NCBI RefSeq assembly: GCF_001895045.1
Contig: NZ_BDAM01000001.1
Coordinates: 434,001-498,000 of the forward strand
Source of the DNA: Rhodococcus coprophilus NBRC 100603
GTDB taxonomy: Bacteria; Actinomycetota; Actinomycetes; Mycobacteriales; Mycobacteriaceae
Direction: 5' to 3'
Length of the DNA stretch: 64,000 nt
Below the pieces are notes generated by a model, which had not been told where the DNA came from, did no database searches, and saw only the letters and a program-made list of their open reading frames with translations. Position numbers and translations under genes: made by a program. Of this stretch, positions 798 through 19,493 are shown in pieces (the stretch's first letter is position 1; the number at the start of each line of letters is the position of its first letter).

Positions 798-2123
798 TCA
801 TCGCGGCTCGGCCGCGCCGGACCAGGACCCGGCCGCCGTCACCCACAGCATCTCGTAGGCCGACCACTCGATCTGCCGACCGTCGACGTAGGCACTGATC
901 CTCCGATCCGTGGTGTTGACGATCACGCGGGCGCGGTCGGACTCGAGAGCGAGCAACCCGTCCGCCACGTCCACCTTCCGCCGCACGACAGTCGGTGGAA
1001 ACCAGCGGGCGAAGCGCTGGAGTACATCGAGAAAGGGCAGAGGCCGGCCACCGCCGGTCGCCCAGGTGTCCGTCCACAGACACTCGGCACACTCCGCTCC
1101 GTCCGGGCGCGGGTTCCAGTACAACACCGTGTCCGCGCCACTACTCGCGAGCTCGATCATCGCGGCGACGCGCAGCGCAACCTGACGCTCCGACGACCAT
1201 CCCGGCCCGGCCGGCTCGACATACCACTCGGTCCACCAAATGGGAACATCGACCTGCGCTCGGAGCCAAGTGGTGACTGCCGCGAACTTCTGCACGGCGG
1301 TGAACTCGTCCGGGGCGCCCTGTGCGGTGGTCGCGTGCGCGTCGACGGCGACGAAGTCGACGCCCTTCCTGCCCAGATTCCAATAGACGAAAGCGTCGAT
1401 GTATCGCTGGTCCACGGCCCCCCAAGGGCCCTGCAGCAGCGGAGAGCTGTCGGGGGAGCCCAGCGGTTTACTCGCGAACTCCACGTAGGGCCCACCGACG
1501 AGGTTCGCGGGGTTCACTGCCTTCACCGCGTCGTAGACAAGGTTGTAGAGATCGGTGTAGCTACGCGCGTCCCATCGTCCCAGTTCGTCGTCGAAGAACC
1601 CTTTGAACTCGTTCCAGACGACGAAATGGCGGACGTAGGGATAGCGCTCGGCCACTGTGGCACTCAGCGCAGCGAAATCGGCGAAGTGTTCGGGGCGCGG
1701 CGCAACTTCCAAGCGGTCCCAATCGGTCTCTCCGGGCTCGCCGCCCTTCATCCAGTCCGGGGCGCAGCACAGGACGATCACCGGAATGCCGCCGCTGCGG
1801 CGAATGAAGTCCATTCGCCGGTCCAGGCTGCGAAAATCGTATCGGCCGGGTGAGGGCTCCGGGTTGTCCGCTCCCCAGCCCATGATGGCCTGAGCCTGCA
1901 CCATGGGTACCGACTCGATCGCCCCGCCGGCCGTTGCGACCGCCGGGGGGTCACCGTCGTCGGCGCTGAACTGTGTGTGCGTGAATCCCCAGCCGGGCCA
2001 TCGGGTGTCGCCGGACCCGGCGGAAGGCTGAAGAGTGGGCGTCCACAGGCACATGGTCACAACCAGCGCGGTCACAGCCACCGCGGTGGGTAACCCGACG
2101 GTGACCCACCGTGGATTCTTCAT
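798..2123 (-). CDS. Secreted/anchored GH39-like glycoside hydrolase of the polysaccharide cluster
   Basis: This 441-residue protein has an N-terminal hydrophobic segment (residues 8-27) after a short basic start, consistent with a signal peptide or membrane anchor. The rest reads as a (beta/alpha)8 clan-A glycosidase. VVWNE at 168-172 would supply the acid/base Glu172 and WTEWY at 298-301 the nucleophile Glu299, as in GH39 and PslG-like enzymes. Such hydrolases often sit in exopolysaccharide operons, where they trim or release polymer. It is the last gene of the leftward unit, 54 bp after the small membrane protein. The substrate cannot be read from the sequence. Confidence 0.75.
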   Translation of the reverse strand: MKNPRWVTVGLPTAVAVTALVVTMCLWTPTLQPSAGSGDTRWPGWGFTHTQFSADDGDPPAVATAGGAIESVPMVQAQAIMGWGADNPEPSPGRYDFRSLDRRMDFIRRSGGIPVIVLCCAPDWMKGGEPGETDWDRLEVAPRPEHFADFAALSATVAERYPYVRHFVVWNEFKGFFDDELGRWDARSYTDLYNLVYDAVKAVNPANLVGGPYVEFASKPLGSPDSSPLLQGPWGAVDQRYIDAFVYWNLGRKGVDFVAVDAHATTAQGAPDEFTAVQKFAAVTTWLRAQVDVPIWWTEWYVEPAGPGWSSERQVALRVAAMIELASSGADTVLYWNPRPDGAECAECLWTDTWATGGGRPLPFLDVLQRFARWFPPTVVRRKVDVADGLLALESDRARVIVNTTDRRISAYVDGRQIEWSAYEMLWVTAAGSWSGAAEPR

Positions 2124-2177
2124 TCAGGCGGCCTTCCCTATTCGAATGCGGGGCGTCGCGGCCCCGTATGCCCGGTG

Positions 2178-2339
2178 TCACGCATGCTTTGTTCCGTGTT
2201 CGGAGTTCGACAACGGATTCTGGGGAATACGCGCTCGGAGCACCAGGAAAAGCGCCGTGTCGACAGCGATGAGAACGAGAAACACAGCCATGACCGCAAC
2301 GACAAGAATCATTGCGGCACCTATCACCATTTCCACCAT
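2178..2339 (-). CDS. Small single-pass membrane protein (53 aa)
   Basis: This short reverse-strand frame begins MVEMVIGAAMILVV and encodes 53 residues. One long hydrophobic helix covers about residues 5-34, followed by a basic turn (LRARIP) and a polar tail ending KHA. It fits the 257-bp gap between the GNAT gene (ends 2381) and the GH39-like gene (starts 2123), in the same direction, with 41- and 54-bp spacers. The upstream purine stretch AGGGCAG is a weak ribosome site. No family is recognised. Length, topology and operon position make it a credible microprotein, perhaps an accessory to the polysaccharide machinery. Confidence 0.5.
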   Translation of the reverse strand: MVEMVIGAAMILVVAVMAVFLVLIAVDTALFLVLRARIPQNPLSNSEHGTKHA

Positions 2340-2380
2340 GTCGAGCTACTGCCCTTCTCGTCGTCGGCTTCGAGCGCCCG

Positions 2381-3241
2381 CTACCAGGGCACACACACCA
2401 GCTCGCTGTAGAGGTCGTCGATCTGCCCGGGTTCCAGGCTCGTACTGCGGTACATCTTGGGCCAGTTGTTCAGCTTGAACGACAGGCGTGGCCGGTGCTC
2501 GATGATCCGCAACTCCACCAGGGTTGCCACGAGCCCCCGACGAACCAACAGATGACGGGTCAGCGGCATCAGGGCACGATGGAACAGCTCGGGATTGCCG
2601 ACATGCAGGACGATGGCGAACACCGGCACACCTTTGTATCGAAACTCCCGGTACATGACGTAGCAGGAGTCCCGGCCGCGGGTCAGCACGAGGTGATGCG
2701 CTGCGAGCGCTTGTGCGTGGTCGTGGTAGAGCTCGAGATCCGTTCCGGTGAGCGTCCTTTCGATCACGTCCGGGTCGGCGCTGATCCTCGTTCGGCCGGG
2801 CAGGGTCGGCCACGGCAGGTTGGGAACGAGCGCCGCAGCCGTATCGAGGAAGCGGAACTTGCGCCAGGCGAGGATCTCCCGCGGGCCTTCGCCGGGCGAC
2901 AGGGCCGTGAAGTGGTAGTCGTCCTGCGACAACACCGCCTCGAGCAGCGAAAGGCTCCGGGATCGGTAGTCGGGCAGCACGCACCACGATCCCATGTTGC
3001 AGAACCGCTCGACCCGCCCCGCGACCAGTCGCTCGGAGTACAAGGCCAACATTGTGCCGACGACGCGCTGCCCGTCCCGGAGCATGAAACCGTGATTGGG
3101 CGCCTCCACCTTCCACGGCACCGCGGAGCACGAGAGGGCCCAGGGAACTCTGTCATTGTGGTTGGCGTGCAAGAACTCCGCCACCGCACCCACGTCGGCA
3201 TCGGTGATCGGAGCCAACTCCACGCTCTTCGGAGTGCTCAT
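2381..3241 (-). CDS. GNAT-fold acyltransferase coupled to the aminomutase
   Basis: This 286-residue protein has a GNAT-like N-terminal half: VVGTMLALYSERLVAG (about 60-75) corresponds to the central beta strands, and GSWCVLPDYRSRSLSLLEAVL (from about 84) to the acyl-CoA-binding strand-loop-helix. The C-terminal half is family-specific. Its ATG overlaps the stop of the aminomutase gene by 4 bp. Coupling to carrier-protein and adenylation genes suggests it transfers the activated amino acid, rather than acetyl, to a sugar amine or hydroxyl. That is inference; ordinary acetyl transfer cannot be excluded. Confidence 0.65.
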   Translation of the reverse strand: MSTPKSVELAPITDADVGAVAEFLHANHNDRVPWALSCSAVPWKVEAPNHGFMLRDGQRVVGTMLALYSERLVAGRVERFCNMGSWCVLPDYRSRSLSLLEAVLSQDDYHFTALSPGEGPREILAWRKFRFLDTAAALVPNLPWPTLPGRTRISADPDVIERTLTGTDLELYHDHAQALAAHHLVLTRGRDSCYVMYREFRYKGVPVFAIVLHVGNPELFHRALMPLTRHLLVRRGLVATLVELRIIEHRPRLSFKLNNWPKMYRSTSLEPGQIDDLYSELVCVPW

Positions 3242-4677
3242 GACTCCAACTCGAGTCCGGCCGGAACTACTGTGTCACAGAGAAGGTCGCGCGCTTTCCG
3301 CCACCACGCCTGCCCGGAGGGCGGCAGACTGCCGATCGGGTCGTAGAACGGGTAGACCCGGCTCAGCGCGTCGGGATCCGTTCCGTCCAAGCCGGTGCGG
3401 TAGTTCTTGCTCCAGTGTGAGATACCGCGGATCCGGTCGTAATAGACCACCTGATCGACCCACCGTTTGCCGACGTAGGGAACATCGCACACGATTCTCG
3501 GAGTCGCGAACCCGGGCAGGTAGCCCATGATCTCCAACTGCAGCTGCTGAGCTTCCCACAGCGAGGTCCGCCAGTGCTCGGCGTGCGGGATCATGTCGCA
3601 CATGTAGAAGTAGTACGGCAGGATGTTCGCCTCGCCCTGCAACGCGAAGCACAGGTCGAGCAGGTCCGTTGCGGTGGCATTCACCCCGCGCATCAGCACC
3701 CCCTGGTTTCGCACATCCCGCAGCCCTCCGTCGAGCAGTGCCCGCGTCGCCTCCGCGACCAGTGGAGTCACCGACTGCGCATGGTTGATGTGGGTGTGCA
3801 ACGCCAGATTGACGCCGCGGGACGCGGCGAGTTGCGCCACGCGCGCAACTCCGTCGACCACCTTTGGCTGCAGCCAGTGCTGCGGCAGCGCGGCAAGCGC
3901 TTTCGATGCCAATCGGATATCGCGGATGGTGTCGATCGCGAGTAACTGCAGCACAAAGGATTCCAGCCGCGGCCACGGAACATTGGCGACGTCGCCGCCG
4001 GACACCACGACATCCCGCACCGTCGGCGTGGCTCGCAGGTAGTCCAGCATCCGGTCCTGCCGATCGGCCGGGTGGAGGGTCAGCTTGGCCTTGCCGATCG
4101 TCGGTGTCGAGTTTCCGACCAGATCCATCCGTGTGCAGTGTCCGCAGTATTGCGGACAGGTCGACAACAGTTCGGCGAGCACCTTGGTCGGGTATCGATG
4201 AGTCAACCCCTCGACCACCCACATGTCGCTCTCGTGCAACGAATCTCGCTCGGCGTAGGGGTGTGAGCTCCATTCCGAATCGCGATCGCTGAGCACCGGC
4301 AGCATGTAACGCCGAATCGGATCGGCATAGAAGGCCTCGGTGAGCCCGCGACGCCCCTGCCCCCAGTGAGGAGCCATGGTGTTCAGCATCTGCGGCGGCA
4401 GCAACATCGACATCGTTGCGCGCTGCTGCTGGTCGGCGTGCAGGTCGTCATAGAAGCGCTCGTCGAGGAGGTCCCCCACGACCGCGCGCAGTTGCCCGAT
4501 GTTCTTGACGGAGTGCGACCGCTGCCACTGCGGATCCCGCCACTCGGCCTCGGTGACCGTTGCCCAGCCCGGGTAACGTCGCCAATCGGGTTCGGACAGC
4601 TCTTTGCGCACATACGTGTACGGCTGATCGGCGACGGCGGCGAAGCCCGTCTGCTGGGACTCGATGTAGGTGGTCAT
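3238..4677 (-). CDS. KamA-family radical SAM aminomutase (lysine 2,3-aminomutase-like)
   Basis: This 479-residue protein has the radical SAM cluster motif CPQYCGHC (Cys174, Cys178, Cys181), a GGD motif at 227-229 and the family signature VLMRGVN (327-333). MCDM and CDVPYVGK follow at 359-362 and 397-404. By comparison with clostridial lysine 2,3-aminomutase as I remember it, Lys404 would bind PLP, and Asp361 and Asp398 would contact the substrate side-chain amine. This suggests lysine or a close analogue becoming a beta-amino acid. ATG 4677 is chosen because AAAGG lies about 10 bp upstream and it overlaps the oxidase stop by 4 bp. Confidence 0.85.
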   Translation of the reverse strand: MTTYIESQQTGFAAVADQPYTYVRKELSEPDWRRYPGWATVTEAEWRDPQWQRSHSVKNIGQLRAVVGDLLDERFYDDLHADQQQRATMSMLLPPQMLNTMAPHWGQGRRGLTEAFYADPIRRYMLPVLSDRDSEWSSHPYAERDSLHESDMWVVEGLTHRYPTKVLAELLSTCPQYCGHCTRMDLVGNSTPTIGKAKLTLHPADRQDRMLDYLRATPTVRDVVVSGGDVANVPWPRLESFVLQLLAIDTIRDIRLASKALAALPQHWLQPKVVDGVARVAQLAASRGVNLALHTHINHAQSVTPLVAEATRALLDGGLRDVRNQGVLMRGVNATATDLLDLCFALQGEANILPYYFYMCDMIPHAEHWRTSLWEAQQLQLEIMGYLPGFATPRIVCDVPYVGKRWVDQVVYYDRIRGISHWSKNYRTGLDGTDPDALSRVYPFYDPIGSLPPSGQAWWRKARDLLCDTVVPAGLELES

Positions 4678-6062
4678 CGTGACAGAACCTTTCGCGAAAC
4701 GGCCGCCGGTTCGACGCCGTGGATCAATTCGGTCGCGACTCGTCGGCCCGACCTGATCGCTCCCTCCATCAGCCCGAAGAACTCCAGGCTGGTTTCGGTG
4801 CCGGCCCAGTGGACGCGGCCGTGCGGTTCGGTCAGTGTCGGTCCCAGCCGCAGCCAGTCCCCCGGGCCGAACAACGCGGCATAGCATCCCCTGCTGTACT
4901 TCTCGGCAAGCCAATCGGTCACGGTGCATTGCGTCGGCGGCGGCAATTGCGGGAAGAGCCGGCGGGTATGTGCCAGCGCCGCGTCCATCTGCTCTGCCGT
5001 CGACAGCTCGGAGAAGGTCGCCGCCGCCGCACCGGTGACGAATCCGGTGAGCACGCCTGCAGATTCATCCGGTGGTGAATCGTCGACCGTGGACAGCAAC
5101 GGCCCGTCCGTACTCAACGACCATCCGGACAAGCCACTCTCACGCCACACCGGAGCCGGATAGCCCAGGTGTACTTTGACCGCGCAGCCACGGCCGGTGG
5201 CCGTCGTCGCTCGCGGCGTCCGCAGAGCAGGCCGGAACTCGATCTGTTGCGCCAACAACGGTGGAACGGCGACGACGACCCGGTCGGCTCGGTACTCGGA
5301 CGGTGCGCCCTCGGCGTCCGGAACGCAGTGCACCACGACCCCGTTGTCGTCCTGATCGATCGCAGCGACCGGACGACCCAACCGCACGCGCTCACCGAGC
5401 CGGTCGGCGAGCGCCAGGCACAACAGGTGTGCGCCGCCGTCGATCCGCCACTGCTGAGCCCCGCCCTCGAACGCGTTGAGGTAGCGGACCCCTCCGCCGG
5501 ATCGCAGGTAGAAGGCCATGTGGAGAACGGAGATCGCTGCGGGATCGGCCGCCATCATCTCGCTCAGAAACAGCGGGAAGAATGTTCGGGCGTCCTGATG
5601 CCCGACCTCGTCGGCCAGCCAGCGCGCGGCAGACAGCCGGTCGAGACGTTCTGCCTGCGGGCTCTGCCACGGCGCGTCGGGCCGGATCGACGCGGCGAGG
5701 TCCTCGAGCCGATCGAACAGATCACCGAGCGCGACCGCGTCCAGCGGGGGCACCCGACTCGCAGTCGTCTTCCGCTGATCCGCCACCAAGAACGTGCTGT
5801 CCCCGGTCATCGCTGTGGAGGCCAGGTCCAGTCCGTACTCCTGCACCTGCGCGAGGAGCTCGGTGTGCCGGACGCCCAAGTAGGCAGCACCCCCGTCGGC
5901 GACCACGCTCACGGACACCGGAATACCGTGTATCCGGCCGCCCACCCGATCGCGCGCCTCCAGGACCGTGACCTCCGCACCCGCCGCCACGAGGTCGACA
6001 GCGGCGGTCAGCCCGGCCAGACCGGCACCGACGACGACAACGCGCATGTTTCCCCCGTTCAT
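4674..6062 (-). CDS. Flavin monoamine oxidase-family enzyme
   Basis: This 462-residue protein opens with the FAD dinucleotide fold VVVGAGLAGL followed by VLEARDRVGGRIHG, the classic monoamine-oxidase N-terminus. Near the C-terminus, GRVHWAGTETS matches the second FAD contact. The family oxidises free or conjugated amines to imines, usually with release of H2O2. It lies between the carrier-protein and aminomutase genes with 4-bp overlaps on both sides. ATG 6062 fits the ATGA coupling. ATG 6047, five codons in and preceded by GGGGGA, starts directly at the Rossmann strand and is equally possible. The substrate may be carrier-bound; this is unproven. Confidence 0.82.
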   Translation of the reverse strand: MNGGNMRVVVVGAGLAGLTAAVDLVAAGAEVTVLEARDRVGGRIHGIPVSVSVVADGGAAYLGVRHTELLAQVQEYGLDLASTAMTGDSTFLVADQRKTTASRVPPLDAVALGDLFDRLEDLAASIRPDAPWQSPQAERLDRLSAARWLADEVGHQDARTFFPLFLSEMMAADPAAISVLHMAFYLRSGGGVRYLNAFEGGAQQWRIDGGAHLLCLALADRLGERVRLGRPVAAIDQDDNGVVVHCVPDAEGAPSEYRADRVVVAVPPLLAQQIEFRPALRTPRATTATGRGCAVKVHLGYPAPVWRESGLSGWSLSTDGPLLSTVDDSPPDESAGVLTGFVTGAAAATFSELSTAEQMDAALAHTRRLFPQLPPPTQCTVTDWLAEKYSRGCYAALFGPGDWLRLGPTLTEPHGRVHWAGTETSLEFFGLMEGAIRSGRRVATELIHGVEPAAVSRKVLSR

Positions 6063-6280
6063 GGTGCTACTGCAGCAACTTTGGCGAACAGCCCTGCCGG
6101 CGAGGGATTGTCGAGGAAGTCCTCGTACAGCAACTCCGTCCCGAAGTCTCGGGCGATCGCACTGAGCACCCGGGTCGCGAGCAGCGAATCGCCGCCGAGC
6201 TCGAAGAAGTCGGAATGCTCGTCCACCGCATCTGTATCGAGGACCCTGCGGAAGATCTGGACAATGTGGTCGGGGCTCAT
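6059..6280 (-). CDS. Stand-alone peptidyl/acyl carrier protein
   Basis: This 73-residue acidic helical protein carries the phosphopantetheine attachment motif FFELGGDSLLATRV with Ser32. Length and motif match discrete carrier domains of NRPS type (LGGDS is more typical of NRPS and stand-alone carriers than DSL-type fatty acid ACPs). The 4-bp overlaps with the adenylation gene upstream and the oxidase gene downstream make a stoichiometric partnership likely: the adenylating enzyme loads an amino acid as a thioester here. No phosphopantetheinyl transferase is in the window. Confidence 0.9.
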   Translation of the reverse strand: MSPDHIVQIFRRVLDTDAVDEHSDFFELGGDSLLATRVLSAIARDFGTELLYEDFLDNPSPAGLFAKVAAVAP

Positions 6281-7848
6281 CGGACTACTCCCTTGTTGTC
6301 GTGGTGCGCTGCGGCACGCTGTGTTGCCGCCCGATCAACCTTTCCGCTGGATGTGCATGCCAGCGCGGCGACGAATCTCACCCGAGTGGGCACGAATTGA
6401 TTGGGGAGGCGCTCACGTAGGTAACGCTTCAGCTCGGCCGGAGTCGTCTCCCCTGCCGGAACTACGTACGCCGTCAGCGATGTACGCCCGAGTAGCCGTT
6501 CACCGACCACGACGGCACCCGCGACCGCGGGGTGACTCGTCAACTGTACCTCGACTTCTGCCGGATGTACGCGCACACCAAGAACTTTCACTTGTTCATC
6601 GACGCGGCCGCGTGCATACAGCAGCCCGCGTTCCCCGCGGGTGACCAGATCTCCGGTACGGAACCACCGGGCCGGGCCGGATCCGTGATCGGCGACCGGG
6701 AAGCCGGTTGCGGTGAGCTCCGGTAGTCCGAGGTAGCCGGTGGCGAGGGCTTCCCCCGAGACCAGCAGCTCGCCCTCGTCGGTGACGTGATCGCGCACAT
6801 GGGGCAACGGGCGTCCGAGTGGCGCCTCGGCGTCGTTCACCGCGACTTCCGGTTCTGTGCCGGGGCCGCTCAGCTGCACCGCGTGGGTCACCATCGTCGT
6901 TTCGGTGCATCCGTAGGTGTTGAGCAACCGGACATGCCCGACGTCCAGATCACGCCACTGCCGCAATCGGTTGGGATCGATCCGCTCGCCGCCGATCACC
7001 ACCAGCCGGACGCCGGCCGGCAGCCCCACCTGCTCCTCGTGCAGGAAGAGTACAAGTTCGTGCCAGAACGCCGTCGGCAGGTCGAGCACGGTGATCTCCC
7101 GTTCCGCCAGCATGCGCAGAAAGGGCGGGAAGGCCCCGGAATGGGCCGTGTCGTCGAACACCAGAGTCGCACCGGAGGTCAATGCGGGCAGGATCTCTTC
7201 CAAGCAGGTGTCCCAGCCGAGTGAGGCGAATTGGAGCACACGGTCCTCGGGGGTGAGCGCGAAGAGGTCGCGCAGCGCCCGCACCGTGACGGCGAGGGCC
7301 TGCCGCGAGACCACCACCGGCTTCGGTGCCCCCGTCGATCCCGAGGTGCACAGCACATACGCGGGATCGTCCCGGTGCCATGAAGGCTGCGGCAGTTCGG
7401 CATCCGCGGCGACCCGGTCGTCGGGCATGTAGGCCCGCAGGGTCGTGGGCGCGTGTGGGTCTCGGTCGGCCACGAACAGTCGATCCACGCCGAGTGCGGC
7501 GGCGAGCGCCTGCTTGCGGGCTACCGGAAGTGCGGCGTCGATCGGGCAGTAAGTGGCACGGGCGTGGAGTATTCCGAGCAGCTGATCTATCACCGCGGGT
7601 GTGTGCGAAACCAGCACGCCGACCTGACCCGATGGCGGGTCGGCGCCGAATCCGAGTGCCCGGTAACGCAATGCGGTAGTTCGCACCCGCTCCGCAAGAT
7701 CTCGATAGGTGATGACCGACCCGTTGTGCACGATGGCAGCGCCCTGGGGCCGATCTCCGACCGCGGTGACGAAGTCCGCCACCACGTCGCCGGCGATATC
7801 GGTGCCGGCAGAGCCGGTACCGGTACGGGGAAAGATGGTGTGAGACAT
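6277..7848 (-). CDS. Stand-alone amino acid adenylation enzyme (NRPS A-domain type)
   Basis: This 523-residue single adenylation domain has a full set of core motifs: CTSGSTGAPK (167-176), A4 around GWDTC with Asp213 where amino-acid-activating domains keep the alpha-amine-binding Asp, NTYGCTETT (310-318), FRTGD (396-400), GRVDEQVKVLG (414-424) and the catalytic Lys503 in SGKVDR. It would form an aminoacyl adenylate and load the adjacent carrier protein. It lacks condensation or thioesterase domains. AGGAA lies 8 bp before the ATG. A 56-bp gap separates it from the large membrane protein gene, so it may be the first gene of a sub-operon. Specificity was not decoded. Confidence 0.88.
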   Translation of the reverse strand: MSHTIFPRTGTGSAGTDIAGDVVADFVTAVGDRPQGAAIVHNGSVITYRDLAERVRTTALRYRALGFGADPPSGQVGVLVSHTPAVIDQLLGILHARATYCPIDAALPVARKQALAAALGVDRLFVADRDPHAPTTLRAYMPDDRVAADAELPQPSWHRDDPAYVLCTSGSTGAPKPVVVSRQALAVTVRALRDLFALTPEDRVLQFASLGWDTCLEEILPALTSGATLVFDDTAHSGAFPPFLRMLAEREITVLDLPTAFWHELVLFLHEEQVGLPAGVRLVVIGGERIDPNRLRQWRDLDVGHVRLLNTYGCTETTMVTHAVQLSGPGTEPEVAVNDAEAPLGRPLPHVRDHVTDEGELLVSGEALATGYLGLPELTATGFPVADHGSGPARWFRTGDLVTRGERGLLYARGRVDEQVKVLGVRVHPAEVEVQLTSHPAVAGAVVVGERLLGRTSLTAYVVPAGETTPAELKRYLRERLPNQFVPTRVRFVAALACTSSGKVDRAATQRAAAHHDNKGVVR

Positions 7849-7904
7849 GGTTTCCTAGTGGTCTAGTAGGTACGGTCCCGCTTCGAGGTGGTCCGTGCAG
7901 CTCC

Positions 7905-10052
7905 TCATGACGTCAGCAATACGAAACGCTCGAGGACGACGAGGACGAAGCCGATGAGAAGCGGTACGGCGGCGAACGTGAGTGCGCGGAGCCGTTTTTG
8001 CTCGTGGGGCCCGAGGCGAATTCGCCACGCCTCACGCACGCCCAGAATGCCCAACAGCATGACCAGAAAAGCCACACCGACCGGGGTCCACGGTGTACGC
8101 CACACCTGCAATCCGGTGGGTGGTGGAACGAATGGTTCGGCTTCGTCCCCCGGGGGCCGGTCGAGGGCGTAGATCGACGCGTCAGGGTTTTCGACGACCA
8201 CCCGAACCCCCGGGGTGTCGGCGAGCGCGTGACGGAATTGCTCGCCCCAGCCGATGGGGTAACCCTGGCCGAACGTCACGAATGCCTCCTGACTTCGTGT
8301 AGTGATCAGGTAGCCCCCGGGCCCTTGATCCCTCAGGGACTGCACCACCCCGGTCAGGTCGGCCGGATCGATCGGCGCCATCGTGTTCGTCCAATGGACT
8401 CGCTCCACGTCGCGATAGCCGAGCGGCATGAAGGGGGTGGAGCCGAGCTCGGGCACAGCGGTGACGTAAAGGAACTTCACCCTGCCGGACGTTTGCTCGT
8501 AGACCGTCCCCACCGCACTGACCGCCCCTTCCGGGATACGTTCGAATGCCTCGTTGCCGTAGCGGGTGACGAAAAAGGAGAACATCATGACCAGCGCGCA
8601 TACGCCCGCGATGCATCGCGCAAGGAGCGGTGGGCGAGATGCCGGCCGGGGGAACAAGGCCAATGCGGCAAGCGCACTCGCGGGCGCGAGCGCAAACAAG
8701 TATATGCGCAAGGCCATTTCGCCGCCGTAGCTCTGCATCAGAGCCAGACTGGCCGGGGCCACGAGCAACACGAGGAGCACGCGGTCCTCGATGCCGCGTC
8801 GCCGCCGGCGGAGCAGCCCCACGCCGGCGATCAGGAAGACCAGCAGGGCCGCAACCACCCGGGCGCGCACGACCCATAGATGTTCGGCGGCGCCGAGGCT
8901 GGCTCGGTCCGCGATGTTCGAGGACACGGTCCCGCCGACATTCCCGACCCCGCTCATCACCTCGCCGAGGTTGCCTCCCCAATATTCGTGGGTCATATAG
9001 CTGATCCACGCCAGCACGATCACCACGAGGAGCACAGGGAGACCGGTGAGAGCACACCGACGCGCGACGACCAGCCCGGCGACGCTCACGATCATGGCGA
9101 AGGGGGTCAGCTGGTGGCTGACGGTGGCCGTGGCGAACAGGCCCACCACAACCGCAAGCACAACGATCCGTTCCGACGACGCTGCCTTTCTGGGCGGTAG
9201 CTCACCCCGTGAAGGGTTGCCCCCGAACCACCGCCACAGTCTGACTGGTCGGCGCAACGACCTCGGCAGTTCCTCCGACGTTCCGTGGGGTGTGCGGAAC
9301 CACATGACGAGTAAGCCCACGAAAAGCAGGTAGAGCAGCAGAGTCCAGCCTTGAGGAGCGAAATAGTCCTGCCCGATCCAGTTCAGGAGACAGAAGAACA
9401 ACGCCGCCAGCCACTTTGCCTGCCAAGACATCCGGAGGGTGCTCAGCAGCAGCCCGAGCGCAACCAGGTAGAGCAGGTTGTGCACCACCGGTGTCACGAA
9501 AAGGACAGTGTGCAGCGCCGCCAGCTCACCCGAACCGAGCACGAACGCGGCGAGCCCGAAGAAGCCTGGCCAGGACCATCGGGCGTCGAGGCCCGGCGCC
9601 GTGGTCCCGGTGCGATCGACGAACTCGACGAAGCCGGCGTGGACCCAGCTGATCGCGAAGCGCGGCTCGGACTCGAGGAGCATCGTGATGCCGTGCAGCA
9701 TCATCACGAGTAGCACCAGCTGAGCACAGAGCAGCCAGACGCAGGGCCGCCGCAGGGAAAGCGTCCCGATGTAGCCGACGGTCAGTAGTCCCAGCCCGAG
9801 CAACGTCGGCACCGGCAGTACCGAGATCAGCCCGAGACCGGTCAGGGCGTCGAGATCGACACTCCGCAATCTGACGAAGTACAACCCGACCGCTGCGACG
9901 GTCAGAACGCAGAGAAACGCCACGCGGACGCCCCGGCTGCCGACCAGTCGCGACCATGCCGGCCTCGCTCCGTCCTCGGTGGGCCGAGGACGGTGAGTTT
10001 CCCGGCCGGACCGGCGCGTTTCGTCGATCAGGGACATGTCGATCAGGGACAT
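7905..10052 (-). CDS. Large polytopic membrane protein of the polysaccharide cluster (possible polymerase)
   Basis: This 715-residue protein has about a dozen hydrophobic segments from residue 45 to about 500. A roughly 130-residue soluble loop follows (contains RDVERVHWTN and GGYLITTRSQEAF), then two C-terminal membrane helices. The layout recalls Wzy-type polymerases or GT-C-like membrane glycosyltransferases, but I recognise no decisive motif. The GTG/ATG region is shared with the flippase 3' end (10-bp overlap). ATG 10052, with GGGGAGA upstream, is preferred over ATG 10037, which arises from a 15-bp duplication. Its place between flippase and modification genes fits a role in polymer assembly. 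Confidence 0.6.
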   Translation of the reverse strand: MSLIDMSLIDETRRSGRETHRPRPTEDGARPAWSRLVGSRGVRVAFLCVLTVAAVGLYFVRLRSVDLDALTGLGLISVLPVPTLLGLGLLTVGYIGTLSLRRPCVWLLCAQLVLLVMMLHGITMLLESEPRFAISWVHAGFVEFVDRTGTTAPGLDARWSWPGFFGLAAFVLGSGELAALHTVLFVTPVVHNLLYLVALGLLLSTLRMSWQAKWLAALFFCLLNWIGQDYFAPQGWTLLLYLLFVGLLVMWFRTPHGTSEELPRSLRRPVRLWRWFGGNPSRGELPPRKAASSERIVVLAVVVGLFATATVSHQLTPFAMIVSVAGLVVARRCALTGLPVLLVVIVLAWISYMTHEYWGGNLGEVMSGVGNVGGTVSSNIADRASLGAAEHLWVVRARVVAALLVFLIAGVGLLRRRRRGIEDRVLLVLLVAPASLALMQSYGGEMALRIYLFALAPASALAALALFPRPASRPPLLARCIAGVCALVMMFSFFVTRYGNEAFERIPEGAVSAVGTVYEQTSGRVKFLYVTAVPELGSTPFMPLGYRDVERVHWTNTMAPIDPADLTGVVQSLRDQGPGGYLITTRSQEAFVTFGQGYPIGWGEQFRHALADTPGVRVVVENPDASIYALDRPPGDEAEPFVPPPTGLQVWRTPWTPVGVAFLVMLLGILGVREAWRIRLGPHEQKRLRALTFAAVPLLIGFVLVVLERFVLLTS
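10023..10052. repeat. 15-bp tandem duplication containing the start codon
   Basis: The unit gtcgatcagggacat is present twice, at 10023-10037 and 10038-10052. On the reverse strand it encodes MSLID twice, giving the membrane protein two possible in-frame ATG starts 15 bp apart. Only the upstream copy has the GGGGAGA element next to it. Confidence 0.9.
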
Positions 10053-11443
10053 ACAGTCTCCCCGCCGGCGGCGATCGGCGGAGTGTATCGCCGGCGCCAC
10101 CCGAGAAGCTGTCCGAGCTCTGGGAGCACCGCCAGCATTGCGATGAGCTGACCGAGCAGAACCGCCGCGCCCACCGCGGTCAGCCTCGGGTCACCGAAGT
10201 GCAGGAAGAACTGGTGGTAATGCTGCAGGGCGACAACCAATCCCAACACGGTCACTGCCCGAAGGGATTGCACCGCGATGATCCGCCTGCGCTTGGTGCG
10301 CGCCCGCAGTGTGCCGAGGTAGATGTCCACGACTGCGCTGGGCAGGCTGGCGAGGGCGAGTAATTGGAGTAACGGCACCGCATCGAGGTATCCGGTACCG
10401 AGCAGCCCGAGGGCGTACGGCGCCGCGAGACCGATCCCGACAACACCGATCATCAGCAGCCCCAGAGCCCGGGTCAGCGCGGAGCGGCAATAGTCGGCCA
10501 GGCTCGACGGGTCGCACACACCCTCCACCGCCATGGACGCGGCCATGTTGACAGCCACGAGATTCATCATGGTGGCGACGGACCAGACCAGAAAGAAGTA
10601 CGCGTAGGTGTGCGGCTCGACCTTTACTGCGACCAGAATCGGGACGAGAAACATGATTCCGTACAGCAACAGCGAACCGAGATAGTCCGCCGCGAAGAAG
10701 CGGCCCACCTGCGAAACCGTCAACTCGGTCTCGACCGTCGACCTGCGTACTTGTTGCGGCAGGAGTTTGCCGAAGATCAGCAGATTGACCGGGAACATGA
10801 CGATGATCATGGGAATGATCCAGGAGAAGAACACTCCGGACCGGGGCATCGATTCGGCCATCACCACCAGAAGGACCAGCTTGGCAACGGCGAACGCCGC
10901 ATTCCAGACAGGCACCCAGACCGCCGCCCGTAGTCCTGTCAACACGCTGTCCTGCACGGTGATCACACTCGCGGCCACCGCAGCGGCGATGAACCACACT
11001 CGCGTGTCCGGCTCGCGGAGGATGTCGTACGCGGGGCCTCCCAACGTGTGGAGTGCGAACAGTAATGCCACGGCGAGGACGGCGACCACGGCGGACGTGA
11101 TGAGGTAGACGAGGGCGACGACGGTGAACGTTCGCTTTCCGGCCTCGGGGATGAAGCGGTTCAGCGTGCCGGCGAAGTTGACCGACACCAGTCCGGTCAA
11201 CAGCATCAACGCCGAAATTGCGGCCGATCCCCGGCCCACGTCCGAGTCGTCGTAGTGGTGCGCCGCAAGGATCCAGTACGCCAGACCCAGGGCGCCCGAG
11301 ATGCCGGTATTGAGGACGAGGGCGTAGGCGTTTCGCAGGAAGGGCGGACCGCCCCGGCGATTTCCTGCCCCGCCCTGGGCAACCCCGGGACCGGCCGTAG
11401 GAAGGTCGTCGGTAACTCGGGTCGCGACCGCACGCTCATACAT
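10043..11443 (-). CDS. MOP-superfamily polysaccharide flippase (Wzx/MurJ-like)
   Basis: This 466-residue integral membrane protein has about 12-14 hydrophobic helices. A short cytoplasmic N-terminus precedes the first helix (NAYALVLNTGISGALGLAYW), typical of polysaccharide exporters that flip undecaprenyl-linked repeat units. GSAAISALMLLTGLVSVNFAG in the next segment resembles actinobacterial oligosaccharide flippases. The ATG overlaps the deacetylase 3' end by 8 bp, and the gene overlaps the following membrane protein gene by 10 bp. It is likely to export the repeat unit made by the neighbouring glycosyltransferases. Confidence 0.82.
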   Translation of the reverse strand: MYERAVATRVTDDLPTAGPGVAQGGAGNRRGGPPFLRNAYALVLNTGISGALGLAYWILAAHHYDDSDVGRGSAAISALMLLTGLVSVNFAGTLNRFIPEAGKRTFTVVALVYLITSAVVAVLAVALLFALHTLGGPAYDILREPDTRVWFIAAAVAASVITVQDSVLTGLRAAVWVPVWNAAFAVAKLVLLVVMAESMPRSGVFFSWIIPMIIVMFPVNLLIFGKLLPQQVRRSTVETELTVSQVGRFFAADYLGSLLLYGIMFLVPILVAVKVEPHTYAYFFLVWSVATMMNLVAVNMAASMAVEGVCDPSSLADYCRSALTRALGLLMIGVVGIGLAAPYALGLLGTGYLDAVPLLQLLALASLPSAVVDIYLGTLRARTKRRRIIAVQSLRAVTVLGLVVALQHYHQFFLHFGDPRLTAVGAAVLLGQLIAMLAVLPELGQLLGWRRRYTPPIAAGGETVCP

Positions 11444-12233
11444 GCCCCAAAACCCGCTTTCCGGCCCGTCGGGAGCGCCGCACAGCTGCCCAGCTCGCTG
11501 TCAGCAGGCGGTCCCGGCGGAAGATCTGCTTGTCGCCACCGGTCATGATCGAGGCGAAGGTGCTCGAGTCGGTACTGCGGCGGATGGTGAGCCGCGGGAG
11601 CATGAAGATGTCGTCGGACGAGCTCGCTCGGATGTTCCTCACGGCCGCGGCGCAGCGATAGCCCGCCGCCCGGGCCGCGTGCCGTACCCGCGGGGTGGAA
11701 TAACCGAAGGGATAGGCGAGGGTTCGCACCGGGGCGCCGATGCAGTCTTCGAGCAGTGTCCGGCCGAGGCGGAGTTCCTCGCGCAGCGGGGCGTCTGCGA
11801 GCTGGTCGAGCTCTGGATGGCTGTGGCTGTGGGCCCCGATCTCGATTCCCGCCGCCGCGAGCTCCCGGACCTGCGCCCAGGTCAACATCCGGTCCAGTGG
11901 CGCACCGGCGGCATGCGAACCGGCGTCGGCGATCCAGCCGCTCGTGACGAAAACCGTCGCCGGAAAACCGTAGCTCCGGAGAATCGGCCAGGCGCATTCC
12001 GCGAAGTCCGCGTAACCGTCGTCGAAGGTGAGAACCACCGGACGCTCGGGAAGCGTATCCCCGGTCTCGAAGGCACCGGCGAGGTCCGAGAAGGACATTC
12101 CGGTGAAGCCGTGACGCACCAGGAAGGCAAGCTGCTCGTCCAGTGCGCGTGGAGCGACGGAGAGTCGTCGTGTTGCGGCTGAGGGGTTTTCACCCACCGC
12201 GTGGTACATGAGGATCGGAACCGACTCGGTCAT
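11436..12233 (-). CDS. NodB-type polysaccharide deacetylase
   Basis: This 265-residue protein carries the NodB motifs: ILMYHAV near the start, TFDDGYAD (69-76) with the catalytic base and metal Asp, and the metal-binding HSHSHP (135-140). LAYPFGY follows further on. The family removes N-acetyl groups from sugar polymers or lipid-linked sugars using a divalent metal. No signal peptide is visible, so it probably acts in the cytoplasm on a lipid-linked intermediate. The ATG at 12233 overlaps the GT2 stop by 4 bp and has GGAGG upstream. It could expose the amine that the downstream GNAT acylates (inference). Confidence 0.85.
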   Translation of the reverse strand: MTESVPILMYHAVGENPSAATRRLSVAPRALDEQLAFLVRHGFTGMSFSDLAGAFETGDTLPERPVVLTFDDGYADFAECAWPILRSYGFPATVFVTSGWIADAGSHAAGAPLDRMLTWAQVRELAAAGIEIGAHSHSHPELDQLADAPLREELRLGRTLLEDCIGAPVRTLAYPFGYSTPRVRHAARAAGYRCAAAVRNIRASSSDDIFMLPRLTIRRSTDSSTFASIMTGGDKQIFRRDRLLTASWAAVRRSRRAGKRVLGHV

Positions 12234-13198
12234 CTCGCCTCCGCCGTCACGGGCCGCCGGCGGAGTGGCGCGCCGCCGCGCGCGTATCCGGCCGCAGCAG
12301 CGAGCAGGCCGACAGAGATGGCACATGAGCGCTCGATCCCGGTCCGGTCTCCGCGCAGCGCGTCACCGAACCCCCGCGCCACACCGCGGGTGAGGGTACG
12401 CGTGGTGTAACTCCGTTCGACAGAGAGCCCGTCCGCAACACCCACGCTGCGCGTCACTGCTGCCTTCGACAACCCTTCGGCAAAACACCGAGAGCGGAAG
12501 TACGAGAACGTCTCCCGCGCGGCCGGAACGCGGTGCCAGATCACCGCCCTCGGTTCGAAAACGAACGTCCAGTCGGGCCGGTGCTGGTTGACCCGGACAC
12601 AGAATTCCGTCTCCTCGCAACCCAGGGGGCGGCTCTGCGCCGAGGTCCGGCCGATGTGACTCGGGAACCCGCCCGCCACCGAAAAGACCTCCCGACGGAA
12701 GGAAGCGTTGCCGCCCAAAAGGTTCCGGACCGGGCCGGGCTCCCGTCCGGTGAACGTACAACCCAGGACCCAGTCGAACTCCTTCGGAAACCACCGGGGC
12801 CGGGAGGATTCCCAGAGCGGTAGGGTCGTGCCGCCTACACCGACGATGTTGTCGTCCGTGTACGCGTCGTGAAAGTGCCGAAGCCAGTCGGGGTGGGCGA
12901 CAGCGTCGTCGTCCAAGAAGGCCACCACGTCACTGGAGGTCACTTCGACGCCTGTGTCCTTACCGCCGGACAGCCCGCGTTGCTTCCGGTTCTCGACGAC
13001 CGTCACGTCGTGTAGAGCACTGCGTAGCCGGTCGTGGAGATCAGGATTGTGGTCGACAACGACTACGATCTCCTGCGCCGTCAGCGTCTGGCTCCGAACC
13101 GACGCAACGGCGGCGAGAACGTCGTCCCACCGATCGAATGTGTAGGCGCAGATCACCACACCCATCGTCAGGGTGCGGCGGGGGGTTACCGCTGTCAT
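12230..13198 (-). CDS. Family 2 glycosyltransferase
   Basis: This 322-residue protein has a GT-A fold opening with VVICAYTFDRWDDVLAAVAS. DDD at residues 96-98 (AFLDDDAVAHPDW) would bind the divalent metal and nucleotide sugar. The ED-type region is GCEETEFCVRV. A C-terminal hydrophobic patch (SVGLLAAAAGYA) may touch the membrane. It likely adds one sugar to the lipid-linked repeat unit. AAGGAAGG precedes the ATG, which overlaps the upstream membrane protein stop by 4 bp. Confidence 0.85.
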   Translation of the reverse strand: MTAVTPRRTLTMGVVICAYTFDRWDDVLAAVASVRSQTLTAQEIVVVVDHNPDLHDRLRSALHDVTVVENRKQRGLSGGKDTGVEVTSSDVVAFLDDDAVAHPDWLRHFHDAYTDDNIVGVGGTTLPLWESSRPRWFPKEFDWVLGCTFTGREPGPVRNLLGGNASFRREVFSVAGGFPSHIGRTSAQSRPLGCEETEFCVRVNQHRPDWTFVFEPRAVIWHRVPAARETFSYFRSRCFAEGLSKAAVTRSVGVADGLSVERSYTTRTLTRGVARGFGDALRGDRTGIERSCAISVGLLAAAAGYARGGAPLRRRPVTAEAR

Positions 13199-13689
13199 GC
13201 AGCACCTGCCTTCCTTGTGGAGTGGGAGGGCGATTCCGGAAGATCGCCGTCATCCGCCGAGGGACGACGGCTAACATGCGTTTCGGCACTCGACGTTTCG
13301 GCACCCGGCCTGCCGATCGGCACCAGCCACAGGAAAGCTGCGGCAAGCCCCACAGCGACGATGCCTCCATGCGGTGACCACACATCGGCCGCCAACATCG
13401 ACTGCGCGACCAGGGCATTGACGACTGCGGCGCCGGCAGCCCCCACAATCAAGGCGAGAGCAGCGTTGACGGCCGGCAACAATCGGGCGATCGCAACCAG
13501 AGGTGCCACAACGAGGAAGGACACCACCCACAGTCGACCCGAGAGCCCCGAAGTGTGAGGCGCGTTCAGCGCGATCGCGATCCCACCGAGCGCCGTCACT
13601 GCCGCCGCAAGCAGGCGGTAGCGAATCCGCGGGCACGGTCGTGGTGGGCACAGTGCCCTGACGAATCCGTCGGTCGCATCACGAAGCAC
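13195..13689 (-). CDS. Small four-helix membrane protein, unknown function
   Basis: This 164-residue protein starts at GTG 13689, 11 bp inside the epimerase gene, with GAGGAAG 7 bp upstream. A longer open frame reaches 13929 but overlaps the epimerase with Arg-rich sequence. Four hydrophobic segments are visible: RLLAAAVTALGGIAIAL, WVVSFLVVAPLVAIARLLP, ALALIVGAAGAAVVNALVA and GGIVAVGLAAAFLWLVPIG. A polar Ser-rich tail follows. No family is recognised. Position between epimerase and glycosyltransferase genes ties it to polysaccharide synthesis. Confidence 0.65.
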   Translation of the reverse strand: MLRDATDGFVRALCPPRPCPRIRYRLLAAAVTALGGIAIALNAPHTSGLSGRLWVVSFLVVAPLVAIARLLPAVNAALALIVGAAGAAVVNALVAQSMLAADVWSPHGGIVAVGLAAAFLWLVPIGRPGAETSSAETHVSRRPSADDGDLPESPSHSTRKAGAA

Positions 13690-14710
13690 TACGGACTTCC
13701 TCTCCGGCGGAACGCGCGCCGATCGGCCTGCCCGCCGACGAAATCGGCGCAAGCCCTGGAACGGTACGCAGCCACTGCACGGTGCGCTGGATCCCCTCGG
13801 CAACATCGACCGCGGGCGACCACCCGAGATCCTGTTTCGCCCTTCTGGTGTCCAAGGCGATTGCCTGTAGTTCACCGGTTCGGGCGTCGGCATACAGGGG
13901 CGGTGCCGACTCCGGTTGCAGCGAGGCAATCAGCCGGTGCACTTCCGCGACTGTGGTCTGTCGCCCGGTTCCGATGTTGTAGGTACCCGTCACGGAAGCG
14001 GGTGCATGGGCAGCCTGCACGAAGGCCTCGACGACATCGTCGACGTAGACGTAGTCGCGGGCGGCGGTCCCGTCCCCGTACACGGTCACGGGACGACCGC
14101 TGATGAGCGCGCTGCCGAAAACTGCTATCACTCCGGCTTCCCCATGTGGGTTCTGACGCGGGCCGTAGACGTTGGCCAGCGCCAGGCAGATCGGTTCCAG
14201 TCCATACATTCCGGCATATGCGCCCAGGTAGAGCTCACCGGCGAGCTTCGCCACGGCATAGGGCGACAGCGGAGCGAGAGGTGAGCCTTCCTCCACCGGC
14301 AGGCGTGCCGGCGTGCCGTAACGAGAGCCGCCCGAAGCGGCGTAGACGACCCTGCGGACGCCCGCCCGCCGACTCGCTTCACAGAGATTGATCGTGCCCA
14401 GCACGTTGCTGCGCGCATCGAACTGCGGATCGGTGACCGAAGCCCGTAGATCCACCTGCGCGGCCAGGTGGAAGATGACATCCGGGTTGATGCCCGAAAC
14501 GACGTCGACGAGCTCAGGATTCTGAATATCGAGCTTTACCAACGTGAATCGGCCTGCGCTCGCATCCTCGCCGCGGAGAGCCCGGTCGAGGTTGGTCGCA
14601 TCGCCCGAACTGAGATTGTCGATCCCGACCACGTGATGCCCCTCGGCGAGAAGACGATCGACCAAGGTGGATCCGATGAACCCGGCAGCGCCTGTAACGA
14701 GTGTCCGCAT
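13679..14710 (-). CDS. NAD-dependent sugar epimerase/dehydratase (GalE-like extended SDR)
   Basis: This 343-residue extended SDR has the NAD-binding TGAAGFIG (6-13), an acidic Asp31 at the end of strand 2 for NAD, HLAAQ (81-85) and the catalytic Ser126/Tyr151/Lys155 set (YAVAK). It resembles UDP-glucose 4-epimerases of actinobacterial polysaccharide clusters and would supply an NDP-sugar precursor. AGGAGG lies 8 bp before the ATG, among the best ribosome sites in the cluster. Exact substrate (UDP-Glc, UDP-GlcNAc or another NDP-sugar) is undetermined. Confidence 0.85.
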   Translation of the reverse strand: MRTLVTGAAGFIGSTLVDRLLAEGHHVVGIDNLSSGDATNLDRALRGEDASAGRFTLVKLDIQNPELVDVVSGINPDVIFHLAAQVDLRASVTDPQFDARSNVLGTINLCEASRRAGVRRVVYAASGGSRYGTPARLPVEEGSPLAPLSPYAVAKLAGELYLGAYAGMYGLEPICLALANVYGPRQNPHGEAGVIAVFGSALISGRPVTVYGDGTAARDYVYVDDVVEAFVQAAHAPASVTGTYNIGTGRQTTVAEVHRLIASLQPESAPPLYADARTGELQAIALDTRRAKQDLGWSPAVDVAEGIQRTVQWLRTVPGLAPISSAGRPIGARSAGEEVRSAS

Positions 14711-14796
14711 TCTTTCGACCTCCTATCCGGTGCCGGGCACGTGCCGGCGGGGCCGCAGATTCCGGGGCACGGGCAGCGAAGTCGCGACGAACCCGT

Positions 14797-15702
14797 TCAT
14801 CGGGCGGCCGGACGAGCCTGGACGAGTTGCGCGTCGCTGCCGCGGGACAGAGCTTGTGCGAGGTAGCCGGAGAGTCCGGAGTCGTGTCCGCGCAAGACGG
14901 TGCGCAGTACCCTGACCCCGTCACGGATGGCATGGAGGTTCGATTTTCCCGACCGCCTAGGCATTTCCAGACTCGGAACCTCCGCGATCCGCAGACCGCC
15001 CTGCATTGCGTGCACCACCATTTCTGCCTCGATTTCGAAACCCGGTGCGGAAAGGGACAACAGGTCGAGGTAGCGACGGTGAAACGCGCAGAACCCGTAG
15101 CACAGGTCGGTCAGCTCCGCATCGTAGAGCGTGTTGAACACCCGCAACAGAAAACGGTTGCCGAGTCGACGGATAGGGGTTATGTCCAGCGACCCGCCAC
15201 CCACGATGAACCTCGAGCCCTTGACGAAGTCGTAGCCGTTGGTAAGAAAGTGCAGGTAATGCCGAATCTCCTGGGGTGCCATGCTGCCGTCGGCGTCCAT
15301 CATGACGATGATGTCGCCGGTAGCGGCCAGGAACCCGGTCCTGAGGGCACTGCCCTTGCCGGTACCTTCCTGGGGAATAACCTTGATGTCGGGCCGATAG
15401 TGACTGGCCGTGATGAGGGTTGCGTCGGTCGAGTTGCCGTCGACCAGGATGATCTCGTCGACCTCGTCGGCGATCTGCTCCAGCACCCAGGCGATGTTCC
15501 GCGCCTCGTTCCTGACCGGGATGATCAAGCTGACCGTGGATGTCGCCTCCGGCACGGTGCGGCTTCGCTTGAGGCGCAGGTTACCGATGCCCTGGTCTAC
15601 GATTCGTGCTGCCTTCCCGACCTGGACCTGGACGGCTGCGTTCGCCGATCGCGCCGGTGAATCTTCGTCTGCAAATCCGTTCTGCTGGCGTACATCTGTC
15701 AT
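14797..15702 (-). CDS. Polyprenyl-phosphate-type GT2 glycosyltransferase (DPM1-like)
   Basis: This 301-residue enzyme has SLIIPVRNEARNIAWVLEQI, then IILVDGNSTDAT and the metal-binding MMDADGS, a pattern shared by dolichyl/polyprenyl-phosphate mannose or glucose synthases. A basic, Gln-rich 40-residue N-terminal extension precedes the GT-A domain. No C-terminal membrane helices are evident. ATG 15702 (GGAG upstream) is preferred over GTG 15753, which lacks a ribosome site. It is the first gene of the leftward polysaccharide unit, 86 bp ahead of the epimerase gene. Confidence 0.8.
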   Translation of the reverse strand: MTDVRQQNGFADEDSPARSANAAVQVQVGKAARIVDQGIGNLRLKRSRTVPEATSTVSLIIPVRNEARNIAWVLEQIADEVDEIILVDGNSTDATLITASHYRPDIKVIPQEGTGKGSALRTGFLAATGDIIVMMDADGSMAPQEIRHYLHFLTNGYDFVKGSRFIVGGGSLDITPIRRLGNRFLLRVFNTLYDAELTDLCYGFCAFHRRYLDLLSLSAPGFEIEAEMVVHAMQGGLRIAEVPSLEMPRRSGKSNLHAIRDGVRVLRTVLRGHDSGLSGYLAQALSRGSDAQLVQARPAAR

Positions 15703-16086
15703 GTCGGACTCCGATCTGCGTTCGATTCGCGGCAACGTACTGAGGTTTCTCACCGGGAACTTGGGTCTGGTGCGAGGGGCGGTTCGGGGAGATCGGCATC
15801 GCGCGACGGAAACTTGGACCCTGCGGTAGCTGGTCCTGCGGCATCGTCATGCACCACCCCGTTTGAGAAACCCACTCTTAACCAATCACATATGCGAGAT
15901 TAAGGGATATAAACATTCTTACAGTCTGTTTTTAGATAATTCTAGGTGGCGCTCCCTGTTTCTCGGGTCCAAGGGTCCCGTGACTGCCCGACGTGATGCC
16001 CGCGGCGGTGAGCGCGGCCGCTGCCCCGCACGATGGTCCGCTCGCCGGTCGCGGAGCCACTCGGTCGCAGAGCCGCTCGGTCGCGG
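15703..16086 (-). promoter_or_regulatory. Intergenic control region with AT-rich island, probable promoter of the polysaccharide operon
   Basis: This 384-bp gap has no convincing gene. Bases about 15868-15955 are strikingly AT-rich for this genome, with runs such as ttaaccaatcacatatg, gggatataaac and gtttttagataattctag, including a 9-bp acagtctgt near-palindrome. Both flanking genes read leftward. A leftward promoter here would leave a 5' leader of about 150 bases before the GT2 start. No -10/-35 pair stands out clearly enough to place. A short frame starting at 15850 is out of phase with the GT2 gene and looks non-coding. Confidence 0.5.
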
Positions 16087-17334: not shown

Positions 17335-17339
17335 CGGAC

Positions 17340-17693: not shown

Positions 17694-17832
17694 TGCCGAA
17701 TTCCTTCTCTGCGGTGGCCGGCTGTTCCGGCCGCTCATCTACTACACGAACGATAGGCGGCAGATTCGACATCCACCGGCACGAAGGGGACAACCGGGCG
17801 CGAAGGCGCGGCACTCCGCCTACCGTGAGGTC

Positions 17833-19419: not shown

Positions 19420-19493
19420 CCGCACCGATCGTCGGACCGGATCGTGCGCCCCACCTCGGCAACACGCGCCGCAGCGTGCAGGATCTCGCTTGG

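Follow-up and report, generated by a model that had tools for sequence, protein, structure and literature searches.

The window analysed here is a stretch of 64,000 nucleotides from Rhodococcus coprophilus NBRC 100603 (contig NZ_BDAM01000001.1, positions 434,001 to 498,000), in which a block of five genes (window 7848-2381, minus strand) is embedded in a polysaccharide-type operon. Along that strand the block encodes a stand-alone adenylation enzyme of the non-ribosomal peptide synthetase (NRPS) type, here called A (6277..7848, 523 amino acids (aa)), a discrete carrier protein, PCP (6059..6280, 73 aa), a monoamine-oxidase-type flavoenzyme, MAO (4674..6062, 462 aa), a lysine-2,3-aminomutase-like radical S-adenosylmethionine (SAM)/pyridoxal phosphate (PLP) enzyme, KAM (3238..4677, 479 aa), and finally a GNAT-fold protein (2381..3241, 286 aa), which is proposed to act as a PCP-to-glycan acyltransferase. 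The original prediction described a leftward chain of five genes joined by 4-bp ATGA overlaps, and all five open reading frames (ORFs) and the overlap at each of the four junctions are indeed present. The longer form of the KAM ORF reported by the ORF caller, from 4929, is an in-frame upstream extension. The block is real and not a chance neighbourhood, and there is about an even chance that it makes a lysine-derived acyl group on the carrier protein that is supplied to an exported glycan.

Enzymes encoded by the block

The identities first assigned to A, PCP and MAO are confirmed by Pfam matches above cut-off. A matches PF00501 (169.9 bits) and PF13193 (49.5 bits), PCP matches PF00550 (54.1 bits with a cut-off of 20.8) and carries a GGDS phosphopantetheine motif that is found in 81/81 rows, the window included, and MAO matches PF01593 (240 bits) and has MAO relatives in the PDB. 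Within NCBIfam, A falls below the TIGR01733 cut-off (276 against 317.4 bits). The specificity code of A was read from an alignment with a core segment of GrsA, whose own code came out as the known DAWTIAAICK, and the window enzyme thereby gives DTEDVGTMVK. Its homologues display DTED[VI]GT with small variation, the D, T and E of positions 1-3 and the G, T and K being constant in 78/78 and position 4 being N in three of the 78 sequences. D235, also present in 78/78, and K517 are both kept. The pocket is near-invariant and, judged from these residues, of the diamino-acid type.

In PMC10522769, the code Asp and Glu of PosA are described as binding the alpha-amine and the side-chain amine of a diamino acid, the eps-poly-beta-lysine synthetase is given the code DGESISVVNK, also with D and E, and the beta-lysine polymer of streptothricin is said to be made by a stand-alone A domain. 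With D and E likewise present in the eps-poly-beta-lysine synthetase, D235 would be compatible with beta-lysine as the substrate.

The flavoenzyme retains K296 and C393, which we take to be the flavin-site lysine and cysteine, in 81/81 rows. MAO-A and MAO-B possess a pair of cage tyrosines, of which Y394 is kept in the window enzyme, and L431 (81/81 rows) stands where MAO-A has the second.

Neither KAM nor the GNAT-fold protein gave a Pfam match in the scan of the window proteins. The naming of KAM as aminomutase-like holds up on the KamA-type NCBIfam models, albeit below their cut-offs, and on a match to the solved lysine 2,3-aminomutase 2a5h (E 9.9e-39). Its radical SAM motif, CxxxCxxC, reads CPQYCGHC, with the three cysteines present in 63/63 rows, and R183, D361, D398 and K404, which correspond to R134, D293, D330 and K337 of 2a5h, are invariant in the same 63 rows. 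The equivalents of D293 and D330 were counted by hand on the 2a5h alignment, just beyond the end of which K337 lies. We take K337 to be the PLP lysine, and D293, D330 and R134 to be the lysine-binding residues; in lysine 2,3-aminomutase an arginine holds the free carboxylate.

The GNAT-fold protein gave no match to a Pfam or NCBIfam GNAT profile, and its relatives gave only weak PF13527/PF00583 matches below cut-off. Its assignment was nevertheless borne out by structure prediction, in which a GNAT fold holds for residues ~4-150, the second half of the protein being predicted with low confidence. The comparison of structures and families covered the families listed by Foldseek and VIA, and membership of others is possible. 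The CoA-binding motif of GNAT enzymes, Q/R-x-x-G-x-G/A, is degenerate in the window protein, where it reads R-S-R-S-L-S, and the position of the first glycine is a serine in 11/11 aligned homologues (YR[SA]xS).

Distribution and the glycan operon

Related loci were collected by a genome scan with an alignment of three MAO sequences, which gave 86 relatives, the best 80 of which were kept; the scan employed the patterns VALGDLFD and PLFL[GS]EMM and is thus biased to MAOs holding both. The presence of genes around MAO at these 80 loci was scored by tblastn. PCP adjoins MAO in 80/80 and A is present in 79/80, at 77 of them within 700 bases. KAM lies within the stretch at 62/80 loci, 17 times directly after MAO, 39 times at a distance of 1.3-2.8 kb and six times elsewhere. 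Among the 18 loci without a nearby KAM, one (L123, a 3.2 kb contig) was left out of the genome search for KAM, and in 17/17 of the searched genomes a match was found elsewhere, although in L063 and L081 in pieces only. The genomes of L055 and L062, which have KAM in the stretch, were also positive in that search. An obligatory adjacency of KAM is hence ruled out.

KAM matches occur in 174/397 genomes of the order at E<=1e-20, and a stand-alone homologue (L053) adjoins genes for lysine 5,6-aminomutase and diaminohexanoate dehydrogenase, both over cut-off. The frequency of KAM in the order, and this copy beside lysine-fermentation genes, exclude KAM alone as a mark of the system. Because KAM is so common in the order, the family, with 401 genomes, is the informative set for co-occurrence. 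Within it, MAO is found in eight genomes at E<=1e-120 and KAM in ten at E<=1e-100. Eight of these ten are the MAO genomes, with matches covering at least 448 of 479 residues at 79-100% identity, and the other two are partial matches at 64-65% identity (Fisher p 3e-15, not corrected for relatedness). These shared genomes, together with the PCP-MAO adjacency at every locus and the A-PCP-MAO arrangement at all but one, dispose of a chance neighbourhood.

Twenty-one of the loci (L055-L075) are of the Mycobacteriaceae/Rhodococcus type, here called glycan-type, L063 among them being labelled as an Acidobacteria metagenome-assembled genome (MAG). Of eleven sugar-gene markers, two or more are found in 18/21 of these loci, the exceptions being L058, L072 and the short L075, against 0/59 of the others. 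Three mycobacterial loci (L056, L057 and L061) and one from Rhodococcus (L059) preserve the gene order GT2-epimerase-GT2-deacetylase-flippase-TM-A-PCP-MAO-KAM-GNAT-GH39. A FastTree tree of 95 rows places the KAMs of the glycan type in a single clade (SH-like support 100). Absence of the block from the polysaccharide loci of relatives had been named as a finding that would speak against the original prediction; relatives do carry it, in syntenic glycan operons. In 8/21 loci (L055, L060, L062, L063, L064, L067, L068 and L073) a GlmS-like gene ends ~0-200 bases before A, and that of L055 contains SIS and glutamine amidotransferase domains according to Pfam. The position of this gene just before A hints at an amino sugar as the acceptor.

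The GNAT gene is present in 11/21 glycan-type loci and in the genomes of three more, giving 14/21. Three genomes, those of L064 (M. aurum), L068 and L072, have KAM apart from A-PCP-MAO, and in each of them the GNAT gene adjoins KAM at 72-239 bases. The KAM-GNAT piece is ~21 kb from the MAO piece in L064 and L068, and in L072 the two are on separate contigs. The KAM-GNAT stretches of the L064 and L068 genomes (L141 and L144) have sugar genes around them, with GNAT directly after KAM. In L141 an EPS sugar transferase is over its NCBIfam cut-off and a flippase is over its Pfam cut-off; the remaining sugar genes of L141 and all of those of L144 were named by eye.

The GNAT is found in 3 of 61 relatives and in 3/396 genomes of a phylum sample, the own genome included in both counts. 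It was also matched in 2/27 searched genomes of the 59 loci of the other type, one having two copies (54 and 49% identity) and the other a single copy at 27%. Some distant relatives accompany a different activation module. At L137 the GNAT adjoins a ligase and a decarboxylase that exceed the cut-offs of TIGR03098 and TIGR03099, respectively, and at L142, from an Actinoplanes philippinensis genome, genes for a GNAT, ligase_PEP_1, dCO2ase_PEP1 and a carrier protein are consecutive (5738-9682). The GNATs of these ligase/decarboxylase sets have identities of 43 and 53%. A further relative (L138, 36%) has as neighbours an exosortase A-type hydrolase that exceeds its cut-off and an amidotransferase-like protein that does not. 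A motif scan found no carrier-protein ORF beside the GNATs of L137 and L138, but its pattern would also miss the carrier of L142. Taken together, these neighbourhoods count as evidence, though short of proof, that members of the GNAT family act together with carrier-based acyl modules at loci of the polysaccharide type.

The other genes of the window cluster are also on the minus strand. Upstream of A is a large membrane protein of 731 aa (7905..10100), which has 15 hydrophobic segments and is syntenic, with no match among the families searched. An identity as a polymerase or GT-C-like protein would be a guess, and the AF2 model (mean pLDDT 41.8) is too poor for use. It is followed by a flippase-like (Wzx-like) membrane protein (10043..11443), likewise syntenic. 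The flippase originally named as a neighbour has the expected appearance, with 11 hydrophobic segments, but is itself without a convincing Pfam match, and of five homologues scanned one, a Mycolicibacterium ortholog (L056), gave a weak, sub-cut-off match to PF01943, so the assignment is weak. Further upstream lie a polysaccharide deacetylase (11436..12326; PF01522, 98.9 bits; FDDG and HSHSH motifs; PgaB-type model below cut-off), a GT2 glycosyltransferase (12230..13198; PF00535; AglG-like model below cut-off), a small membrane protein ORF of uncertain start (13195..13929; four hydrophobic segments; weakly conserved in synteny) and an NAD-dependent sugar-nucleotide epimerase/dehydratase (13679..14710; NCBIfam epimerase/dehydratase models, below cut-offs). 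A syntenic GT2 glycosyltransferase of the polyprenyl-phosphate type (14797..15753; AglJ-like model below cut-off) marks the upstream end of the conserved cluster.

Downstream of the GNAT gene is an N-terminally anchored, GH39-like glycosidase-like protein (798..2123), with one N-terminal hydrophobic segment and a PF01229 match below cut-off (E 1.1e-4), which is syntenic in L056, L057, L059 and L061. Past it lie genes for chorismate synthase and dehydroquinate synthase, and a shikimate-dehydrogenase-like gene (Pfam) lies beyond the other end of the cluster. Sugar genes had been claimed for both flanks of the block; this stands for the upstream side, as far as 15753, whereas downstream there is one glycosidase-like gene and then the shikimate pathway. 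Flanked in this way by shikimate-pathway genes (window 798-20447, L139 6699-9599), the glycan cluster may have been inserted into a region of genes for that pathway.

A few observations may be recorded in passing. Upstream of the cluster, a sigma-factor-like ORF adjoins a small one that is YCII-like (window 16087-17738, by eye). Genome G000 contains very long frames with many adenylation domains, at C1:127097-145540 (7409 aa) and C10:153095-167944 (5923 aa). The contig of L063, whose A, PCP and MAO are 68-78% identical to those of the window, is probably a misbinned mycobacterial one. In Rhodococcus sp. JCM 9791 (L044, L075), MAO, GNAT, GH39 and the 731-aa membrane protein (TM731) are matched in pieces, reflecting either assembly error or decay.

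Proposed chemistry and its alternatives

The chemistry of the block is what we infer from conserved residues, gene neighbourhoods and family context. KAM would first convert free L-lysine to beta-lysine, as its residues, co-occurrence and family suggest. A would then adenylate a diamino acid, which from the pocket is most likely beta-lysine, and load it onto PCP. The strict adjacency of PCP and MAO argues for the action of MAO on the tethered residue, most likely on the terminal C6 amine, to give an aldehyde that would close on the 3-amino group to form a (1-pyrrolin-5-yl)acetyl thioester, the cyclisation being probable. With MAO in the block, plain beta-lysine is unlikely to be the final group. 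The GNAT may next transfer the acyl group carried by PCP to a lipid-linked glycan, on either an amino or a hydroxyl group, with the deacetylase perhaps uncovering the amine there, and the flippase-like protein would finally export the decorated glycan. In the original model an unusual beta-amino acid was placed on a glycan: the glycan link and the lysine/beta-lysine-type unit are supported by the synteny, the sugar-gene neighbourhoods, the co-occurrence, the A pocket and the KAM residues, but attachment by the GNAT is inferred.

A broader proposal can be made more tentatively, as possible and no better than that. A-PCP-MAO-KAM may constitute a portable route to an oxidised, cyclised beta-lysine, of the pyrrolinyl-acetyl type, on a carrier. 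This would have two uses, one being the decoration of glycans, with a GNAT whose acyl donor is the carrier and not CoA, and the other being the supply of a unit to a large secondary-metabolite family.

Several points weigh against the assignment of a lysine-derived acyl group to an exported glycan. The position of oxidation and the ring closure are guesses drawn from amine-oxidase chemistry. Moreover, KAM is below the cut-off of each of six KamA-type NCBIfam models (best E 1.4e-44; TIGR03820, 152.5 bits against 525.4; TIGR00238, 148.1 against 199.2), for which reason it is named only as 'like' an aminomutase and is placed outside the equivalog, and the abundance of KAM in the order means that its presence in Streptomyces-type genomes says little. 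L-lysine is still possible as the substrate of A, because the code retains the Asp that usually binds the alpha-amino group. At L072, PCP and MAO were found by tblastn and A was not. The marker count favours the Mycobacteriaceae/Rhodococcus group, since the window and mycobacterial loci supplied the sugar markers. Searches of 7/21 glycan-type genomes, those of L055, L062, L063 (a short MAG contig), L067, L069, L070 and L074, gave no GNAT match, and the GNAT relative at L143 adjoins a glycosidase-like gene, identified by eye, with no activation module beside it. Finally, 59/80 loci (L076-L134) have no sugar markers and resemble secondary-metabolite clusters. The A-PCP-MAO cassette is therefore not confined to glycan loci.

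The alternative that survives best, although rather unlikely, has A loading L-lysine and MAO making an allysine/Delta1-piperideine-type acyl group from L-lysyl-S-PCP, with KAM serving a parallel branch or acting on another substrate. The invariance of D235 would suit such a scheme, as PosA is described in PMC10522769 as binding the alpha-amine via that Asp, and so would the 18/80 loci in which KAM is outside the stretch and, in all 17 genomes searched, elsewhere in the genome. Opposed to it are the retention of D and E in the eps-poly-beta-lysine code given in the same paper, the eight family genomes that KAM and MAO share, and the placing of KAM directly after MAO, or within a few kilobases of it, at most of the loci.

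It is also unlikely that the GNAT caps the free amine in the manner of an ordinary acetyl-CoA N-acetyltransferase, leaving the PCP-to-glycan transfer to a separate enzyme. The GNAT fold is consistent with this role, as are the seven glycan-type genomes in which no GNAT was found, for if the proposed transfer from carrier to glycan holds, these genomes would need another transferase. The serine in place of the first glycine of the CoA motif in every aligned homologue argues against it, and so does the finding that two distant GNAT relatives adjoin a different ligase-based activation module.

Distinctly unlikely is a block that makes a small diffusible metabolite, a kind of product that is probable for the Streptomyces-type clusters, and is merely housed in a polysaccharide region. 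Its appeal lies in the 59 loci without sugar markers, which carry genes for an acyl-AMP ligase (56), thioesterase-like (44) and PaaK-like (39) proteins and SARP regulators (23), often together with KAM, and also ATP-grasp-like (by eye) and MFS genes. The A code in these loci is nearly that of the window. Acyl-AMP ligase and SARP markers, however, occur in 0/21 glycan-type loci, and the sugar markers of that group, the synteny of the operon across genera and the well-supported glycan-type KAM clade all speak for a glycan. Highly improbable is the action of KAM after loading, on PCP-bound lysine, which the position of its gene downstream of MAO might suggest but against which the conservation in 63/63 rows of the arginine expected to hold a free carboxylate speaks.

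Relation to known systems

Should the supply of a carrier-bound, lysine-derived acyl group to the glycan prove true, NRPS-style chemistry would serve to attach a remodelled lysine derivative, probably a charged or reactive one, to the surface glycans of bacteria, changing the surface charge or cross-linking of environmental mycobacteria and rhodococci. It would also provide a handle on a GNAT family so far unassigned and predict with which unit synthesis starts in the 59 other clusters, a widespread actinobacterial type that is matched to no described product; the literature searched held no support for negamycin as that product. In the same literature, which left most subscription journals outside its scope, no description of a glycan operon with an aminomutase, an amine oxidase and a carrier was found, and the A code strings had no match.

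Carrier-based acylation of envelope glycans is nonetheless a known kind of system, and the nearest kinds are the exosortase A-type modules and the beta-lysine pathways of antibiotics. The exosortase A-type sets comprise a TIGR03098 ligase, a TIGR03099 PLP decarboxylase, a carrier and a GNAT, and the block resembles them in that GNAT relatives lie beside an AMP-forming ligase and, in L142, a carrier. It differs from them in having as ligase an NRPS A domain that stays below the cut-off of TIGR03098 (ligase_PEP_1; 144.2 against 592.35 bits), in having KAM and MAO in place of the decarboxylase, and in that none of six genomes searched, the own genome included, has an exosortase match (PF09721; the control was positive in 1/14 genomes).

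The streptothricin and viomycin/capreomycin-type pathways combine a lysine 2,3-aminomutase with stand-alone A and carrier parts and have antibiotics as their products; we know of no MAO step in them. The aminomutase, A and carrier parts are thus held in common, and the block is distinguished by its position in a glycan operon. In Dlt D-alanylation, a stand-alone A and a discrete carrier modify an envelope polymer by way of a membrane transferase. Compared with Dlt, the A of the block is far under the DltA cut-offs (155.6 against 476 and 142.6 against 559.85 bits), its substrate would be remodelled, and a GNAT takes the place of the membrane transferase. The 59 actinobacterial clusters have the A-PCP-MAO core in common with the block, along with an A code that is almost identical, the sugar genes being replaced there by those for acyl-AMP ligase, thioesterase-like and PaaK-like proteins and SARP.

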